From Bdellovibrionales bacterium (lineage in GTDB: Bacteria > Bdellovibrionota > Bdellovibrionia > Bdellovibrionales > UBA1609), in assembly GCA_013216195.1 (NCBI GenBank), contig JABSOQ010000003.1, positions 1 through 38,418 on the forward strand: DNA of 38,418 nt, written 5' to 3'. This document shows, in pieces, positions 29,687 to 37,947 of this stretch. Every line of letters begins with the position of its first letter. Position 1 is the stretch's first letter. Position numbers and translations under genes: made by a program. The notes under the pieces are model-generated. The model saw nothing but the letters and a program-made list of their open reading frames with translations. It had not been told where the DNA came from and did not search any database.

Positions 29687-29739
29687 AATTATCGAGTGCT
29701 ACGATTTTCTAGGACGAAATGCATCAAAGGGTTGTTATT

Positions 29740-30570
29740 ATGAAAAAAACTCTGATTGAACTCATCATCCTGCTTGTCGTGTCGGCATTTTTAGCGCCAA
29801 GCTCTTACGCTCAAATTGTTGTGGCGACTGTTGGTGGCAAAAAGATCACTCTTAAAGAGTTCAAAAAGAAGTTTCGCGATGTGAAGCAAAACTCAATCAA
29901 CCCACCAAAACCTGAAGTTTTTTTGGAAGACCTGATTCGCTTTGAAATGGGTGTTCAAGAGGCTGAAAAAATGAGCCTTCGTAATGATCCAATTGTACAA
30001 GAACGGTTTAAGCAAGAGATGTACAAGGCCCTTCTCGAGAAAAAACTAGGTAAGCAAGTTGAAGGCATCAAAGTAAATGAAAAAGAAATGCGCCGTTGGT
30101 ACAAGAAAAACCCTGAGTTGCGTTTGAGTCACATTTTGATCGAGTTTTCTCCAACAGCAACCGCCTCTCAAATAAAAGAGGCTAAAAAAAGAGCCAATGA
30201 GATCTACGCTGAAGTTAAATAAAGTAAGAGACCTTTTGAAGAGTTGGTCAGGCTCTACTCAGATGATTCACTCAGTAAAAACACCGGTGGTGATATCAAC
30301 TACCAATCACGCCTAACAATCGTGCCACCAGTTTACGAAACAGCTCTGCGCATGAAGGTTGGTCAGGTTAAAGGTTTGGTTCGAACTCAGTATGGTTATC
30401 ACATTTTGAAGCTCACCGGTAAGCGAAGCTATGACCAGGCAAATAAACGTTCGATTAGAACTGGCGTTTTTGATTCTAAACGGAAAAGAATCTTTGATGG
30501 CTACTTCAAGAAACTTTCTGGAAACTACAAAGTTAAGCGCAACAGACAGGCTTTGAAAGGCGTTAAGTAA
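29740..30570 (+). pseudogene. PpiC-type peptidyl-prolyl isomerase interrupted by one in-frame stop
   Basis: The frame encodes a signal peptide (ending S-Y-A before Gln25), a SurA/PpiD-like helical N-domain and a parvulin domain from about residue 133. Codon 161 is TAA (30220-30222). After it the same frame continues for 115 more codons, giving SKRPFEELVRLYSDDS, GGDINY and TQYGYHILKL, the second half of the parvulin domain. No frameshift is involved. The two parts join to a normal protein of about 276 residues with Lys the likely lost residue (AAA to TAA). It could be a recent pseudogene, stop read-through or a base error. The truncated product lacks the active half of the domain. An alternative ATG lies seven codons upstream. 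It starts a cluster of folding factors. Confidence 0.85.
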
Positions 30571-30626
30571 AAGCTTAACCAGCTCTTTTCATCTCTCAGC
30601 TTGTCTGATACCAGTGGATAATCAAT

Positions 30627-31601
30627 ATGAAAAAGTTCACTCAGATTACCCTGATTTTAGGCGTCTTGTTTCTAGTTGGTTGTACCAAAGGGTGTTTGTT
30701 AAACCGCTCAGGCCAGTTATCAGAAAGAGTTGTCGTCAAAGTCAATGAAGTGGACCTCACGGCTGAAGAGTTTGCTAATGCTTTGGCCGATCAACTCAAA
30801 AACTACGATGCATTAACTGTTAAAGAAGAGGGCTTGATCATTCAAGCCAAGCAGCAAGTGGTTCGAGACTTTATCATTCGAGTTATCACAGAATCTTGGG
30901 CTCAAGAAAACGGCTTGCTCGTTCAAAAAGAAGAGCTGGAAGCAGAACTCGCCAACATTAAAAGCCAATACCCCGACGATCTCACCTTTAGACAAAAGCT
31001 AATTGAACAAAATATTTCTTATGAAACATGGCGCAGCCAAATAAAATTGCGTAAATTGCAACACAAAGTCGTGGAGCAACTCAAAAGCAAGATCAGCCAA
31101 CCGTCAGAATCTGAAATGAAAGAGTTCTTTAAAGAGCACAAAAAAGAGTACTCACATGACAAGCAAGTTTTACTCGAGCAAATCGTAGTGCGCACTGAAG
31201 ATGAAGCCGACAGAATTCGTCAAGGCCTAAGAAAAGGCAAAAAGTTCGGCGAACTTGCTAAACAGTTTTCGATTACACCTGAATCAGAGAATGGTGGTCG
31301 GCTAGGCTGGATAGAGCAGGGCATGTCTGACACTTTTGACAGCGCGTTTCAGCTACCAGTAAACCGATTAAGCGGCGTGTTAAAGAGCCCTTATGGCTAC
31401 CACATCCTCAAAGTTGTTAAAAAGCGCAAGGCATTCACTGAGTCATTTGAAGATGTGAAAGAACGTATATATAAACAATTGATACAAAATCGTGAGCAAG
31501 CTGCGTATTCAAAGTGGCTCGAAAAACAAATTCGAAAGGCAAAAGTATTAAAAGACGAATTCTTTATTGCCAGCATGAGAGTCGAAACTTCAGCAGAGTA
31601 A
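30627..31601 (+). CDS. Periplasmic PpiC-type peptidyl-prolyl isomerase lipoprotein
   Basis: This 324-residue lipoprotein has the lipobox LVGC (Cys19), a long helical N-domain (about 35-150, SurA-N-like) and one parvulin domain (about 178-265) with GGRLGWIEQG and SPYGYHILKV, where the terminal His is typical. It should be lipid-anchored and help fold outer-membrane or secreted proteins. It follows the interrupted isomerase gene and overlaps surA, so the three form a folding-factor cluster. The exact substrate is unknown. Confidence 0.9.
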   Translation: MKKFTQITLILGVLFLVGCTKGCLLNRSGQLSERVVVKVNEVDLTAEEFANALADQLKNYDALTVKEEGLIIQAKQQVVRDFIIRVITESWAQENGLLVQKEELEAELANIKSQYPDDLTFRQKLIEQNISYETWRSQIKLRKLQHKVVEQLKSKISQPSESEMKEFFKEHKKEYSHDKQVLLEQIVVRTEDEADRIRQGLRKGKKFGELAKQFSITPESENGGRLGWIEQGMSDTFDSAFQLPVNRLSGVLKSPYGYHILKVVKKRKAFTESFEDVKERIYKQLIQNREQAAYSKWLEKQIRKAKVLKDEFFIASMRVETSAE

Positions 31602-32554
31602 TTCTAGCCTTAATTGCACTTATGGTGATCACTTCACCGTTCGCCAGAGCTGAACTAATTGAACGCATAGTTGCTATTGTAGACAATGCTATCGTGACGA
31701 AAACTGATCTTGAGGCCTACCGTGAGAAGCTCAAATCAGGTGGCCTTGTCGACGATGCTCTTCTCAAAATGAAAGACCCGAAGGCTCTTATGAGCGATGA
31801 CAACGCACTTGTGAGTCATCTGGTCGACGAGCGAGTTATCGACCAAGAGATTCAACGATTGGGCATGGCTGTCACTATCGAAAAGGTAGAACAAGAAATT
31901 CGCAGTGTTACCTCTAGAAACGGTATTACTAGAGCTCAGTTGAAAGAGGCCCTAACTGCTAGAGGTGTTAAGTTTTCTGATTACCAAGACTTCATTCGTA
32001 CATCGTTAGAAAGACAGGCCCTGATCGATCGTGAAGTTGCCTCTAGAATTAAGATCTCTGAAGAAGACATTTCAAATTTCTATCTTGCCCAAACTCAACA
32101 AACCAACGCTCAGGTTTTTGAATACCGACTTGCTCACATTTTGATTAGGCCTGTTGAGCGGGGAGGGCAAAGCCCAGATGAGAGAATCAAGTTGGTTCAA
32201 AGAAAAGTCTCAGAGGGTACAAGAAGCTTTTCAGAGCTAGCTTCTCAATTTTCAGAAGACCCTAATTTTTCACAAGGTGGCATTCTAGGTTCTTTTAAAG
32301 CAGGTGAAATGCTACCTGCCCTTGAAAATGGAATTCGCAGTTTAAATGTCGGTGATATTTCACAGCCTGTTAAAACACCTGCCGGTCTTCATATCATTAA
32401 AGTGATTAACAAAACCCTTGTTGAGGATCCAAATTTAAAAGCACAGAAAGTACAAATTCAAAATATTCTCTACGCCAGAGCTTTCAAAGACCAATTTAGA
32501 AAGTGGCTCGACCAAAAGAGAGAGAACTCATTTATTAGGATCAACGAGCAATAA
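31514..32554 (+). CDS. surA: SurA-like periplasmic chaperone/isomerase
   Basis: This protein has 346 residues from a GTG start. It has a hydrophobic signal segment (about 29-41) ending A-R-A before Glu47, then the SurA N-domain (ERIVAIVDNAIVTKTDLE) and a single parvulin domain (about 203-305) with LAHILIR, GGILGSFKAGEM and LHIIKV. E. coli SurA has two parvulin domains; one is missing here, as is common outside Enterobacteria. SurA escorts outer-membrane proteins through the periplasm. The start is uncertain: this GTG has no SD sequence and makes an 88-base overlap with the preceding gene, but no other common start codon precedes the signal segment. pdxA follows with a one-base overlap (TAATG), the same order as surA-pdxA in E. 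coli. Confidence 0.85.
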   Translation: MARKTNSKGKSIKRRILYCQHESRNFSRVILALIALMVITSPFARAELIERIVAIVDNAIVTKTDLEAYREKLKSGGLVDDALLKMKDPKALMSDDNALVSHLVDERVIDQEIQRLGMAVTIEKVEQEIRSVTSRNGITRAQLKEALTARGVKFSDYQDFIRTSLERQALIDREVASRIKISEEDISNFYLAQTQQTNAQVFEYRLAHILIRPVERGGQSPDERIKLVQRKVSEGTRSFSELASQFSEDPNFSQGGILGSFKAGEMLPALENGIRSLNVGDISQPVKTPAGLHIIKVINKTLVEDPNLKAQKVQIQNILYARAFKDQFRKWLDQKRENSFIRINEQ

Positions 32555-33486
32555 TGCTGAATCATGTTGTTATCACTACTGGCTCCCCAGAAGGGGTTGG
32601 CTCAGAGATCGTCAAAAAAGCACTGCTAGAGATAAAGCCGAATTCAAAACTGAGATACACAGTGCTCTCTCACAATTCGGCTTTGCCAATTCAGCTTAAA
32701 GGACCTTGGCGCGTAAAAAAAACAGACAAGAGCGAGCTTGCAAGATGGAGAGCTTCTGACCGAGATGTTGTTCGCTTAATATCTTACTCAGGGTCACCCG
32801 CCAATATGGTCAAGGCAGCAACTCAACTCTGCATAGACGACAGCAATACAGCAGTTTCAAACGCTCCGATGCGAAAATTGAAATCAGGTGCTGGTCATAC
32901 CGAGATCATCAAAGACATGAGCAAATCGAAACATGTCACAATGGGTTTTATTGGTAAAAGGTTTAATGTCTGTTTAGCTACGACCCACATTCCGCTAGAA
33001 AAAGTACCAGGTCAGTTAACTAAATCTAGAGTTACTGTGGTGGCTAAAGCCACAGAGAAGTTACATCAACTTACGGGACCTTCAGCAGACACAATAGGGG
33101 TGCTGGGCTTAAACCCGCATGCCGGTGAAAGCGGGGCCATCTCTAAACTCGATGCCAAGCTTTTCTCGGTCTTGAAACAGTGTCGATTGAGCTCGCCAAT
33201 AAGCCCCATGTTGCCAGCCGACGGAGCTTTTATGAATGGGGCTCCACATCGAACCCTGCTTGCCTGGTATCATGATCAGGGCCTGATCCCATTTAAACTT
33301 ATCCATGGCTTATCTATGGGAATTCAAATCACCCTGGGGATCCCCTTTATTCGAACAAGTGTCGACCACGGAACAGCTGAAGATCTTCACGGCAAAGGAA
33401 TAGCCGACCATAAGTCTATGAAAATGGCTATTCAGTGGGCCGCCAAACTACAAGCCCAACATGGAAACAGCCTGTTAGATCTCTGA
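32554..33486 (+). CDS. pdxA: 4-hydroxythreonine-4-phosphate dehydrogenase
   Basis: PdxA oxidises 4-phosphohydroxy-threonine in the vitamin B6 pathway that uses deoxyxylulose phosphate. The metal-binding histidines are kept: His145 (TTHIPL), His189 (LNPHAGE) and His240 (YHDQGLIPFK), and the substrate segment RTSVDHGTA is present. Two motifs drift from the usual form (start TTGSPEGVGSE for T-GDP-GIGPE, and PADGAF for PADT-F), so activity is likely but could be shifted. The 310 residues fit the family. It is coupled to surA through TAATG. Confidence 0.9.
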   Translation: MLNHVVITTGSPEGVGSEIVKKALLEIKPNSKLRYTVLSHNSALPIQLKGPWRVKKTDKSELARWRASDRDVVRLISYSGSPANMVKAATQLCIDDSNTAVSNAPMRKLKSGAGHTEIIKDMSKSKHVTMGFIGKRFNVCLATTHIPLEKVPGQLTKSRVTVVAKATEKLHQLTGPSADTIGVLGLNPHAGESGAISKLDAKLFSVLKQCRLSSPISPMLPADGAFMNGAPHRTLLAWYHDQGLIPFKLIHGLSMGIQITLGIPFIRTSVDHGTAEDLHGKGIADHKSMKMAIQWAAKLQAQHGNSLLDL

Positions 33487-33577
33487 ATTACGTCTAATAT
33501 TGCTAAACTTTGAGGCTGCTTCTTAGCTAGAATGTGATAGTTTTGTAGGGCTTTTTACCTAAACCTGAGGTGATTTT

Positions 33578-34945
33578 ATGAAGATGGATACAGTTATTTT
33601 CAGAGAGTACGATATTCGTGGAGTTTGGAACGAGCAATTTGATATCGAATTTGCAAAAGACCTCGGCAGAGCACTTTTCACCTACCTAAAAAAAGAGAGA
33701 TCTGTAGATAGCCCTACAATTTCAATCGGCTACGATGCTCGCTTAAGTAGCCCTGAAATTGCGGCTGCACTTACAGAGGGCTTTACTGGATGTGGGGGTG
33801 ATGTGAAGCTCCTCGGCTTGATTACATCGCCGATTAGCTATTTCTCCACCTTCACTCTAGATGTTGATGGTGCCTTCATGGTGACAGGAAGCCACAACCC
33901 ACCTGAGTTTAATGGCTTCAAAATTTCAGCTGGTAAGTCGACCATTTACGGTGAAGAGATTCAGAAACTCAGAGCTATTATTGAAAACAAAGATTTCTTT
34001 GAAGGCTCTGGTTCAGCCGAAGAGCACGATATCTTTCCAAGTTATTTGGCTCGCTACAAAGAAGAGTTTACAGACCTCAAAGACATTCCGGTGGTTTTAG
34101 ACTGTGGCAATGGTGCGGCCGGATGCATTGTAAAAGACCTTTTTGAAACGGTTGGCTTGAAGCCTGAAATACTTTTCGAAAAGCCAGATGGCACGTTTCC
34201 AAACCATCACCCTGACCCTACTGTTGAAAAGAACCTCAAAGATCTTCAGACATCTGTAAAAAGCTCAGGGGCTAAAGTAGGAATCGGTTTCGATGGAGAC
34301 GCTGATCGTATTGGTGTCGTAGATGAAACTGGTAAAATGATCTACGGAGATGAGCTTATGTGTCTATACTCAAAGTTCGTTCTTCAAGACTCGGCTGAAA
34401 AGAAGATTATCGGCGATGTGAAATGCTCCGACCGAATGTATGACTACATCGCCAAACATGGTGGTGAACCCGTAATGTGGAAAACAGGCCACAGCCTGAT
34501 TAAACAGAAAATCAAAGATGAAAAATCACCTTTCGGTGGTGAGATGAGTGGTCACATATTTTTCGCTGACCGTAACTACGGCTATGATGACGCTCTTTAC
34601 GCTGGTCTTAGAATTGTTGAGATCTTATCAAAGTCAGGTAAAACCATCACTGAACTTCTAAGTGACCTTCCAACTGCGTACAACACACCAGAGCTACGTA
34701 TTGATACAACGGAAGAAAAGAAGCATATGATTGTTGAGAGGCTGAAAGAGACTTTCTCTGCCCCTAGTGACGAATACAAAGCCAACCTCATAGACGGCAT
34801 CAGGGTTAGTTTTAAAAATGGTTGGGCCTTAGCCAGAGCCTCAAACACTCAACCCGTACTGGTATTGAGATTCGAAGCTGATTCTGAAGACAACTTGGCT
34901 CAAATTCGCTCTCAGTTTGATGAGGTTGTAAACCCACTATTGTAA
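33578..34945 (+). CDS. Phosphomannomutase/phosphoglucomutase
   Basis: This 455-residue alpha-D-phosphohexomutase interconverts hexose 1- and 6-phosphates for LPS and polysaccharide precursors. The phosphoserine loop is VTGSHNPPEFNG (Ser105), the Mg site is GFDGDADR (Asp239, Asp241, Asp243), the sugar-binding loop is GEMSGH (321-326) and the phosphate-binding loop is RASNTQPVLVLR near the end. It resembles ManB/AlgC-type enzymes that take both glucose and mannose, but specificity is not certain. GAGGTG precedes the ATG. A bidirectional hairpin follows the stop. Confidence 0.95.
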   Translation: MKMDTVIFREYDIRGVWNEQFDIEFAKDLGRALFTYLKKERSVDSPTISIGYDARLSSPEIAAALTEGFTGCGGDVKLLGLITSPISYFSTFTLDVDGAFMVTGSHNPPEFNGFKISAGKSTIYGEEIQKLRAIIENKDFFEGSGSAEEHDIFPSYLARYKEEFTDLKDIPVVLDCGNGAAGCIVKDLFETVGLKPEILFEKPDGTFPNHHPDPTVEKNLKDLQTSVKSSGAKVGIGFDGDADRIGVVDETGKMIYGDELMCLYSKFVLQDSAEKKIIGDVKCSDRMYDYIAKHGGEPVMWKTGHSLIKQKIKDEKSPFGGEMSGHIFFADRNYGYDDALYAGLRIVEILSKSGKTITELLSDLPTAYNTPELRIDTTEEKKHMIVERLKETFSAPSDEYKANLIDGIRVSFKNGWALARASNTQPVLVLRFEADSEDNLAQIRSQFDEVVNPLL

Positions 34946-34971
34946 TGGTTTAAGAACCAATAGTGATTTGT

Positions 34972-35003
34972 AAGGCCGCTCAGTTTGCGGCCTTATTTAT
35001 TTT
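34972..35003 (+). terminator. Terminator hairpin shared with the end of the facing gene
   Basis: AAGGCCGC and GCGGCCTT form an eight-pair stem followed by ATTTATTTT on the plus strand, 27 bases after the phosphohexomutase stop. The stem contains the last codons and stop of the convergent membrane-protein gene, so the same DNA serves both. Confidence 0.85.
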
Positions 35004-35720
35004 ACTGTGGTGGTAGACGTTTGTGAGCTTGTCGCTGGCAGCCCCCAGAAAAAACAATCCAAAAGAAATCAACAAATGAAACACTGCCCGCTTTTGGTTG
35101 TCTGCTTTACGCACCTCATAGTCAGCCCAGCGCTGTTTCATTGTTTCATCTTTTATCTGTTGAGTTCGACTCTCTAGGCTCTTCTGGTTTTCTGCGGCAA
35201 TATCTCTCTCTATTTGCTCGATTGAAGTCTGTTGGGAGTCACCAATTTCATGGGCAGATACTGGCTTTGCATTTGCAATCAAGTTCATTTGATCGAACAA
35301 GTTCTGTCTCTCTATTTGTTCTTTTGCCTCGGTACGTGCCTGTAAGTCTGTAATCTCTTGAGGCGCTTTAGTGGGCTTGAAGCTAATTGAAAAAGTGAGG
35401 AAAATCGCTATCGCTCCTACATAAATAAGAGTAGCAGATACAAGGTTCAAAGGGCTAAATTTGCTTTTGTGCTCTTCGGGTAAGTCTCTTGGTAGCAATT
35501 TCGACAACAAAGGGTTCGCCACTAGGGCTGGCCGAACCGAGGTGGTGTAAGCAGGTAGTAAGATCACGATAAAGATTGCAACACCAAATACTGAACCTGG
35601 CACACCAAAAGCATTTAAACCCGTCGTTAGCAAAAGCGCGAATGCCACAAGAAGAAAAACATCTAGTGCATTAAAGCTCATGTTCTTTATAATATCGGCT
35701 GTTTTGGTAAAATCGTTCAT
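34980..35720 (-). CDS. Membrane protein with long coiled-coil loop, unknown function
   Basis: This protein has 246 residues. Three hydrophobic segments (about 17-35, 40-58 and 93-110) are followed by a polar, Gln/Glu-rich helix of about 100 residues with coiled-coil character (for example IEQIERDIAAENQKSLESRTQ) and a last membrane helix near 215-233. No family is recognised. The start chosen has AGGAG seven bases away; two earlier ATGs are too close to or upstream of the SD sequence. It starts 11 bases after the stop of the 738-residue gene, so the two form an operon. Its last codons lie inside a terminator hairpin. Confidence 0.8.
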   Translation of the reverse strand: MNDFTKTADIIKNMSFNALDVFLLVAFALLLTTGLNAFGVPGSVFGVAIFIVILLPAYTTSVRPALVANPLLSKLLPRDLPEEHKSKFSPLNLVSATLIYVGAIAIFLTFSISFKPTKAPQEITDLQARTEAKEQIERQNLFDQMNLIANAKPVSAHEIGDSQQTSIEQIERDIAAENQKSLESRTQQIKDETMKQRWADYEVRKADNQKRAVFHLLISFGLFFLGAASDKLTNVYHHSKINKAAN

Positions 35721-35730
35721 TCTCATACTC

Positions 35731-37947
35731 CTATGCTGCATCAAAATTCTTGAAGGCCTGTTGTAATAGGCTTTTGATAAGGTTTCTTGCTAAATACTGC
35801 TGATATCTTTTGAAGTCGTCTCTCGCTATGTGTAGCTCTCTAGTTTTTTTGTTTGCTGCCAACTTGTCTTTTTGCCTCGGTAAAATGTTTCTGCCATCGT
35901 TTAGGTACTTGTAGAACTTTTGATTCTTTTCGAGATAAATGTAGGTTTTAAAATCGACAGGCATGTCGATATCAATATCATTAACTTGAATGGTAACCAT
36001 GTTCGGGTCTGCTTTAGAAACCTTCATCTCAGGAACAGACTCTGAGGTCTGCAAAAAGGTCAGAGCAATTTCTTCTCTCTGAGACTGTTCAAAGATTGTG
36101 AACAAGCCAACGTTGTCTTTCCAAAAATCAAATGTGAACTTCTCGGTGTCCATGATAAATGGGTTCTGACAAGTGACATCAATGCCTTGAGCTGAGAAGG
36201 TCGACTCAATAGACATCAACAATGTATCTAGAAGGTCTGAACCGAGTTCAAAGCCAATACCACTTCGACTAATCACCACATAGCCAGATAAAATACTCGT
36301 GTTAATCGGGATAACCCCAATCTTTTCCACATCTTCAATTTCAATTTTAACATCAGGGTCTGCTTCTGATGTCGCAGCTTTTAAAGCCTCTTTCATTAGA
36401 CTTCTGAATTTATCTTCTGATTCTTTGAGTTCGCCTTTCGGAACACCATCTAAACTGGCCTCTTTAAGTTTCTTTTTTTGTGCTGCTTTCTCATTCTCAG
36501 AGGTCTGTTCTTTTGATTTTTTACTGTCGCTCTCTCTTAGTCCACGTGAGGGGTGGGACTTACCCGAGGCAAAATCACCTTCATTTGCATCCTTTTTTGA
36601 TTTCGCATCGGCTCCGAGTTGATTCTCAGCCTGAGCTTTTTTGTTGAAGCCATCTTCATTAGCCCCTTGTTGAGCCCCTTTCTCTTTGCTCGAGAGGCCT
36701 TCGGCATTAGCTTGGTTCGGCTTTTTACTGTTTGGGCCTTCTTGAGAAAACTCTCCACCCTTACCCTTGGCTGCTTCTTGGGTGAGGTCGGGACCATCTT
36801 TTTTCTTGTCTCCTTTTTGTAGACCTAGTGACTTTTCATCCTTTTGAAGTCTTTGTTTCTCTTTTTCTTCTGAACCTTTTTGAAGATCTTTGCGACTTTG
36901 CTTCATTTCAAACGAAGCACCTGGGCGTGTATCTTGATTTTTTATCGCATCTTCTTGTGGCTTTTCATCTTTCTGCCACGGATACATTTTTCTCTGTGGT
37001 CTCTTCTTCTTTTTGAAACCTTGTTCGTCATATTCATCAAATGAGTTTGTTGAGGAAGACGCACTAGAGCTGTTTTGACTTCGACTCGCTGGCCCGGCTT
37101 TGTTGCCCTCTTGGGTAGCTGATGATCGACTTGCTGCTTTAGGACCAGATGTCTTCGCTGAGAAAGAGGTCTTAGAGGCGCTCTCTTGGGCTCTGGCCTG
37201 TTCAGCAGCTGACATTCCGCTGTGGCTAGGTCCTCTGGCTTCTCCTGCTTGTATCTTTCCACCCTTAGCGGCAGCTTCTGCTAGGTCTTGGGCCGCGCTC
37301 TTTTTGCTACCAGGCCCTGTGGCAGACTTCTGTATCAGAGGATCACGGCTTTCTGCGGCTCGTATTTGTGATGCTGCAGATCCCTTTACTGTGATTGGGC
37401 CGGTCTTTTTGTCATTGCTAAAAGTCTGATTGTCATCTGCGGAGCTTGCAGACCCTTTTACCTCTATGCTGTCTTTCTTGTTTGCTGCAACGGCTTTGCG
37501 CCTTTTGCGAGTCTTATCTTCGTACTTGTGTGGGTTGTGAACTCGGTCAAGAATCTGCCTTATAAATCGATGAAAACTCGGACCTGAAGGGTAACCAGAA
37601 AACTTATGCTGAAACCTAGAGTTACTTAGCTTCTGAATAGACATGCTGTCGCCGGTTTCACTAAACCCAATGGTGATTGCATTCATCGACTGACTAAGAA
37701 GTGTTGGAAGCCTCATCACATTTGGGTTCGGGTGATTTACTGACACCATCACCACTTCAGGCTGACTGTTTACGATTGTATCAATTGATTTAGCGATGTT
37801 GTTTTGGCAAACAGTTTCCCAACCTCTGCGATTCAAAAAACTTACAGCAGAGTTCATACCTGATGTGTCTTTTACCAGCATAAAGATTCTGATATCGAGT
37901 TCATCGATATCAACGTCTTTTGGTGCCTGACCTACTTCATCACTCAT
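35731..37947 (-). CDS. Receiver-like domain plus long disordered linker plus novel C-terminal domain
   Basis: This 738-residue protein has no signal peptide or membrane segment. Residues about 17-135 look like a response-regulator receiver fold (IRIFMLVKD at the first strand, PEVVMVSVN at the third), but the phosphoacceptor Asp is replaced by Ser/Val, so it should not be phosphorylated. Residues about 140-505 are disordered and rich in Lys, Gln, Glu, Gly, Ser and Ala. Residues about 505-738 form a folded alpha/beta domain of unknown type, ending in basic helices (KRYQQYLARNLIKSLLQQ). It is the first gene of a two-gene operon with a membrane protein. The function is unknown; scaffold or signalling roles are inferred from the design. 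Confidence 0.75.
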   Translation of the reverse strand: MSDEVGQAPKDVDIDELDIRIFMLVKDTSGMNSAVSFLNRRGWETVCQNNIAKSIDTIVNSQPEVVMVSVNHPNPNVMRLPTLLSQSMNAITIGFSETGDSMSIQKLSNSRFQHKFSGYPSGPSFHRFIRQILDRVHNPHKYEDKTRKRRKAVAANKKDSIEVKGSASSADDNQTFSNDKKTGPITVKGSAASQIRAAESRDPLIQKSATGPGSKKSAAQDLAEAAAKGGKIQAGEARGPSHSGMSAAEQARAQESASKTSFSAKTSGPKAASRSSATQEGNKAGPASRSQNSSSASSSTNSFDEYDEQGFKKKKRPQRKMYPWQKDEKPQEDAIKNQDTRPGASFEMKQSRKDLQKGSEEKEKQRLQKDEKSLGLQKGDKKKDGPDLTQEAAKGKGGEFSQEGPNSKKPNQANAEGLSSKEKGAQQGANEDGFNKKAQAENQLGADAKSKKDANEGDFASGKSHPSRGLRESDSKKSKEQTSENEKAAQKKKLKEASLDGVPKGELKESEDKFRSLMKEALKAATSEADPDVKIEIEDVEKIGVIPINTSILSGYVVISRSGIGFELGSDLLDTLLMSIESTFSAQGIDVTCQNPFIMDTEKFTFDFWKDNVGLFTIFEQSQREEIALTFLQTSESVPEMKVSKADPNMVTIQVNDIDIDMPVDFKTYIYLEKNQKFYKYLNDGRNILPRQKDKLAANKKTRELHIARDDFKRYQQYLARNLIKSLLQQAFKNFDAA

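Follow-up and report, generated by a model that had tools for sequence, protein, structure and literature searches.

Results

Two adjacent genes on the minus strand

The window, by which we mean the whole stretch of 38,418 nucleotides analysed here, lies within contig C221, which is 108,651 bases long and belongs to a draft genome of 4.1 Mb. It carries two neighbouring genes, P0001 and P0002, each with an ATG start codon and a Shine-Dalgarno-like sequence upstream. By codon usage, frame 0 is clearly best for both, and both are therefore taken as coding. They lie where the original prediction, made from the DNA letters, had placed them, although the gap between them is 10 bases (35721-35730) and not the 11 given there. 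The features considered below are these:

35731-37947, minus strand: P0001, 738 aa, with a degenerate receiver, a disordered linker and a CheX-like / HD-GYP-associated C-terminal domain
37498-37947, minus strand: N-terminal degenerate receiver, residues 1 to ~150 (PDB profile matches, AlphaFold, Foldseek)
36415-37497, minus strand: disordered low-complexity linker, residues 151-511 (composition over orthologs)
37381-37467, minus strand: two copies of an I-x-V-K-G docking-type motif, IEVKG at 161-165 and ITVKG at 185-189 (motif count in orthologs)
36043-36435, minus strand: CheX-like fold without the catalytic helix, residues ~505-635 (Foldseek, hhalign)
35776-36003, minus strand: HD-GYP-associated module, residues 649-724, homologous to the Bd1817 N-terminal domain (profile search, Foldseek)
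35734-35739, minus strand: C-terminal Ala-Ala, a proposed ClpX-type degron (end residues of orthologs against controls)
34980-35720, minus strand: P0002, a membrane orphan of 246 aa whose loop is polar and probably helical; 10 bases separate it from P0001 upstream
34970-34996, unstranded: terminator-like hairpin between a convergent pgm-type gene and P0002

In searches of Pfam, NCBIfam and PHROGs, P0001 gave no convincing family match, and its PADLOC match was weak; the protein thus stands outside the families of these collections, as had been predicted. Pfam matches to Mrx7, VpsR, Oxidored_q3 and HTH_15, PADLOC matches to CARF and ThsB, and a PHROGs match to an Rz-like spanin were weak or below the cut-off, covered the proteins partially and were set aside. 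One ortholog alone matched ClpS in Pfam (E=2.5e-4). The three-part architecture of P0001 is kept in 47 distinct orthologs.

At lower coordinates (29719-34945) the window holds a row of PpiC/SurA-type chaperone genes together with pdxA and a phosphomannomutase-type gene, in an order kept in most relatives. The first PpiC-type gene, at 29719-30222, is followed immediately on the same strand by an ORF (30244-30570) that resembles the remainder of a PpiC protein, so a frameshift or an assembly error may have split this gene.

P0002 is confined to one of 144 genomes

Hydrophobic segments of P0002 lie near residues 30, 53 and 103, and a fourth, judged by eye, lies near its C-terminus; the loop between hydrophobic segments is polar and probably helical. 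This agrees with the earlier description of the second protein as a membrane protein with a loop. The P0002 ribosome-binding site overlaps the stop codon of P0001 on the same strand, so coupled translation is likely. The P0002 stop codon itself lies inside the terminator-like hairpin.

Homologs of P0002 were absent from the other genomes in a set of 40 relatives and from 143 other genomes of the class, including both congeners. Its own genome is thus the single occurrence among 144, two further matches at E about 0.009 in that set being chance-like. P0001 orthologs, in contrast, were found in 27 of the 39 other relatives searched, a count that leaves out one genome (G021) in which the HD-GYP module alone was matched. 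In other genomes, unrelated genes fill the slot downstream of P0001 orthologs. Hence the two-gene module of the original prediction is a local arrangement: the pair is not conserved in related genomes, and the conserved function of P0001 cannot need P0002. We conclude that P0002 is a recent, species-specific neighbour of P0001, probably co-transcribed with it.

A receiver fold with a replaced active site

An alignment of the N-terminal region from 17 orthologs matched response regulators in the PDB (best E=1.3e-4), with FrzS structures among the weaker matches (E=0.02). The AlphaFold model of this domain (pLDDT 79.8, pTM 0.70) has the (beta-alpha)5 fold of phosphorylatable receivers (PF00072), and its best Foldseek matches are response regulators or receiver-like constructs. 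Unlike those receivers, P0001 lacks the acidic pair, the phospho-Asp and the Lys after beta5. The phospho-Asp position (residue 69) is Ser in 44 of 47 orthologs, including P0001 itself; no conserved acidic pair was found after beta1 in the 47 receivers; and [ST]-G-P stands at the place where Lys-Pro is expected. The earlier view of this domain as a non-phosphorylatable receiver is thus well founded.

Other residues of the domain have become fixed. Glu97 and Leu107 are present in all 47 orthologs and Arg41 in 46, while in the [ST]121-G122-P123 motif the first two positions are invariant (47/47 each) and Pro123 is kept in 46/47. This pattern looks like a conserved surface and not like decay. Judged by the alignment, the receiver has lost its phosphorylation residues and keeps a different conserved pocket.

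A long linker with a short motif

The linker, predicted at about 360 residues, comprises 361 and is of low complexity. Across orthologs its prevailing residues are S, G, A, E, K, N, D and Q, and domain matches are spaced 94 to 540 residues apart. In 34 of 47 orthologs the receiver is followed directly by [IV]-x-[IVL]-[KSR]-G, mostly as I-x-[IV]-K-G, against 1.7 expected from shuffled linkers; this expectation serves as a guide only, since the pattern was picked after the alignment had been viewed.

The C-terminal unit joins a probable CheX-like fold to an HD-GYP-associated module

Residues 500-738 are modelled with high scores (pLDDT 88.6, pTM 0.83), which bears out the prediction that the protein ends in a folded domain. 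That this domain is new does not hold, for one part of it matches Bd1817 and another looks CheX-like; a C-terminal domain of wholly unknown kind is thereby ruled out.

The first part, residues ~505-635, matches CheX in Foldseek at E=4.5e-4, and the four PDB matches better than E=0.001 are all CheX/CheC-type structures. It shares with the CheX/CheC/FliM-type fold the order helix-strand-strand-helix-strands. A profile of the 47 orthologs aligned with a Bdellovibrionia CheX profile at P=5e-5 (hhalign), whereas decoys (nine unrelated families, the reversed CheX profile and the P0001 family's own N-domain) gave 0.06 or worse. The similarity is nonetheless remote. TM-scores of 0.26-0.31 normalised by query, with an rmsd of 7-9 A over the whole alignment, indicate a fold relationship and not a close family tie, and no direct match to the Pfam CheX family (PF13690) was found. 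Phosphatases of the CheX/CheC/FliM type have a helix bearing the ExxN pair; in the P0001 model this extra helix is missing, and no conserved ExxN pair is present in alignments of the family.

The second part, residues 649-724, resembles the N-terminal domain of Bd1817, an HD-GYP protein from B. bacteriovorus (PDB 3tm8), at about 30% identity, with E=0.01 for the single sequence and E=1e-12 for the profile, and the two superpose in Foldseek with an rmsd of 2.0 A over 73 columns. This module of ~70 residues, common to P0001, Bd1817 and related HD-GYP proteins of Bdellovibrionota, is widespread in the phylum and precedes an HD domain in four proteins of P0001's own genome. Bd1817-type proteins have an HD-GYP domain; P0001 does not, and has a long linker and the CheX-like fold in addition. 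In a search for HD-GYP (PF13487), no HD family was matched in P0001, which ends about 14 residues past the module.

Small residues at the C-terminus

Sequence and length vary among orthologs just before the end of the protein. The last two residues are both A, S, G, V or T in 42 of 47 orthologs, against 4 of 134 control proteins drawn from nine syntenic families (P=8e-31, a statistic that ignores phylogeny). The ends are AA in 13 orthologs, AS in 8 and VA in 7. C-terminal Ala-Ala and related ends are recognised by ClpX, the ssrA tag and Caulobacter CtrA being two examples. On sequence grounds, the small terminal residues suggest a ClpX-type degron; they could also have a role other than ClpX recognition. 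A literature search for a C-terminal degron combined with a receiver returned no result.

Distribution and neighbours of the family

P0001 orthologs are common in class Bdellovibrionia, B. bacteriovorus included, and all N-domain matches better than 1e-8 come from this class. Among 40 genomes, the family is present in 28 of 31 that encode flagellin and in none of the nine that do not (Fisher P=8e-7, phylogeny ignored). Three flagellated genomes thus lack it. The nine without flagellin have reduced genomes of 1.2-2.4 Mb. Five of them retain HD-GYP domains, so the P0001 family tracks flagella more closely than HD-GYP. Because these genomes are small and the test takes no account of phylogeny, the link to flagellin is only suggestive.

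Of the 18 regions that were informative, about 12 have the gene immediately downstream of atpZ-atpI-atpB-atpE-type genes; it usually converges on pgm-pdxA-surA-type genes (names of both groups assigned by eye). In the genus Bdellovibrio it adjoins iscS and not ATP synthase genes, and in other lineages that lack the ATP synthase adjacency its neighbours are thymidylate synthase/DHFR-type genes or flagellin. In one such genome (G032, L030 11370-12215), a flagellin gene directly follows the P0001 ortholog.

One protein of genome G104 is identical to Bd1817 over the compared part, and we therefore take this genome to be B. bacteriovorus HD100. Its P0001 ortholog has 531 aa (1,134,336-1,135,931, minus strand) and lies 7 kb from zapA, which by description matches Bd1185, the 'activator of cell division' (PMC12546842). 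In a literature search for the locus tag of this ortholog, the neighbours Bd1185 and probably Bd1192 were found, and the gene itself was not.

In genome G020, a region on contig C133 with atpE and a P0001-family gene looks protein-identical to that of G008, and a different ortholog of its own lies on contig C42 (L027 9536-10594, L031 8411-10210; also L048 and L049). The duplicate probably reflects cross-binning, since HKST-UBA10 and UBA12 are two metagenome assemblies from a single study.

The same parts in an operon of the same genome

Elsewhere in the genome that carries the window, on contig C35 (L113 258-2448), an operon encodes a STAS-CheX protein of 281 aa that ends in QQAA, followed by a protein of 455 aa composed of a degenerate receiver, the HD-GYP-associated module and HD-GYP. 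A degenerate receiver thus stands in front of the module in the operon's HD-GYP members, as it does among the parts of P0001, and the receiver of these proteins aligns with that of P0001 over its full length (P=8e-4). CheX and HD-GYP matches adjoin in the same order in several relatives (e.g. G009:C41, G013:C68, G018:C151, G031:C1).

Discussion

The shared parts and the operon indicate that P0001 is one chain made of non-catalytic versions of parts that cooperate elsewhere in the cell. Of what was originally predicted for this locus, the scaffold role remains the best reading for P0001. To judge by sequence and models, the simplest form of it is that P0001 acts as an adaptor or a competitor in a CheX/HD-GYP network. 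P0001 represents a family spread over the class Bdellovibrionia, and we tentatively propose, as the likeliest reading, that it is a non-enzymatic, phosphorylation-independent adaptor hub in CheX/HD-GYP signalling.

Such a hub would draw its parts from the CheX and receiver/HD-GYP repertoire of the lineage. The receiver pocket and the linker motif may hold fixed, putative partners whose binding would be independent of phosphorylation, and the C-terminal unit could bind the STAS-CheX and HD-GYP proteins of the cell, which carry the same modules, or compete with them. ClpXP-type proteolysis, acting through the C-terminal Ala-Ala, would remove P0001. If so, the amount of protein, and not its phosphorylation, would be the signal. 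That the family is restricted to flagellated genomes suggests that it controls motility or a switch between swimming and prey-associated growth. Some observations weigh against the adaptor reading: the gene usually lies beside ATP synthase genes and not motility genes, the likeness to CheX is remote, and the flagellin link ignores phylogeny. We consider it rather improbable that the proposal holds in its most detailed form, that of an undescribed family of proteolysis-timed hubs in predatory Bdellovibrionia. In these hubs docking and turnover would replace phosphorylation, a Ser/Glu/[ST]-G-P pocket would take the place of the phospho-Asp pocket, and a dead CheX fused to the HD-GYP regulatory module would help the switch between swimming and prey-associated growth.

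Alternatively, P0001 could be a polar scaffold of the RomR/FrzS type, with a receiver and linker that mark one pole and recruit regulators of motility or pili, and with no special relation to CheX or HD-GYP. By analogy this is conceivable, and we regard it as doubtful. FrzS and other pseudo-receivers use a receiver fold without a working phosphorylation site as a protein-binding module, as P0001 may do, and the weak profile matches to FrzS structures fit this idea; the middle of FrzS, unlike the P0001 linker, is a coiled-coil. The layout of P0001 is also that of RomR in Myxococcus and Bdellovibrio, with a receiver, a long non-conserved middle and a conserved C-terminal part (PMC6428892). Moreover, B. 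bacteriovorus RomR itself no longer uses receiver phosphorylation (PMC6428892), the same independence that we propose for P0001. However, no RomR-like C-terminus was recognised in P0001. RomR has a phospho-Asp site in its annotated sequence where P0001 has Ser69, and the B. bacteriovorus ortholog of P0001, near zapA/Bd1185, is not romR, which is Bd2761 (PMC6428892). Gene position and the missing phosphorylation site together rule out P0001 as RomR.

The presence of the HD-GYP-associated module raises the question of c-di-GMP. P0001 could be an effector whose C-terminal unit binds c-di-GMP and whose linker relays this to the partner of the receiver, and in the other cases examined the module does accompany HD-GYP domains. 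Yet for Bd1817, which has this module too, PMC3774798 reports that c-di-GMP binding could not be detected, and P0001 matches neither PilZ nor another receptor family, which makes such an effector unlikely. The frequent position directly downstream of ATP synthase genes could likewise point to a regulator acting on the neighbouring F-type ATPase. This we hold to be very unlikely, because the adjacency is lost in Bdellovibrio and several other lineages and because many genomes lack the P0001 family while ATP synthase is a housekeeping enzyme. Equally improbable is a self-contained, undescribed membrane system of P0001 and P0002: the short gap, common strand and overlapping ribosome-binding site are what such a system might show, but the orphan status of P0002 rules out a conserved pair, and a complex of the two could at most be a local adaptation in this species.

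The adaptor reading thus draws on elements of which several have precedents. Pseudo-receiver scaffolds, the Bd1817 module and CheX folds are already known. We found no earlier description of their combination in P0001 or of the replacement pocket, linker motif or terminal signature. The family provides a conserved, uncharacterised protein with a precise anatomy in the model predator B. bacteriovorus, and it offers testable sites in Ser69, Glu97, the linker motif and the two final residues. Should the adaptor reading be true, P0001 would link receiver, CheX and HD-GYP parts, which are known to control motility, in predatory bacteria.
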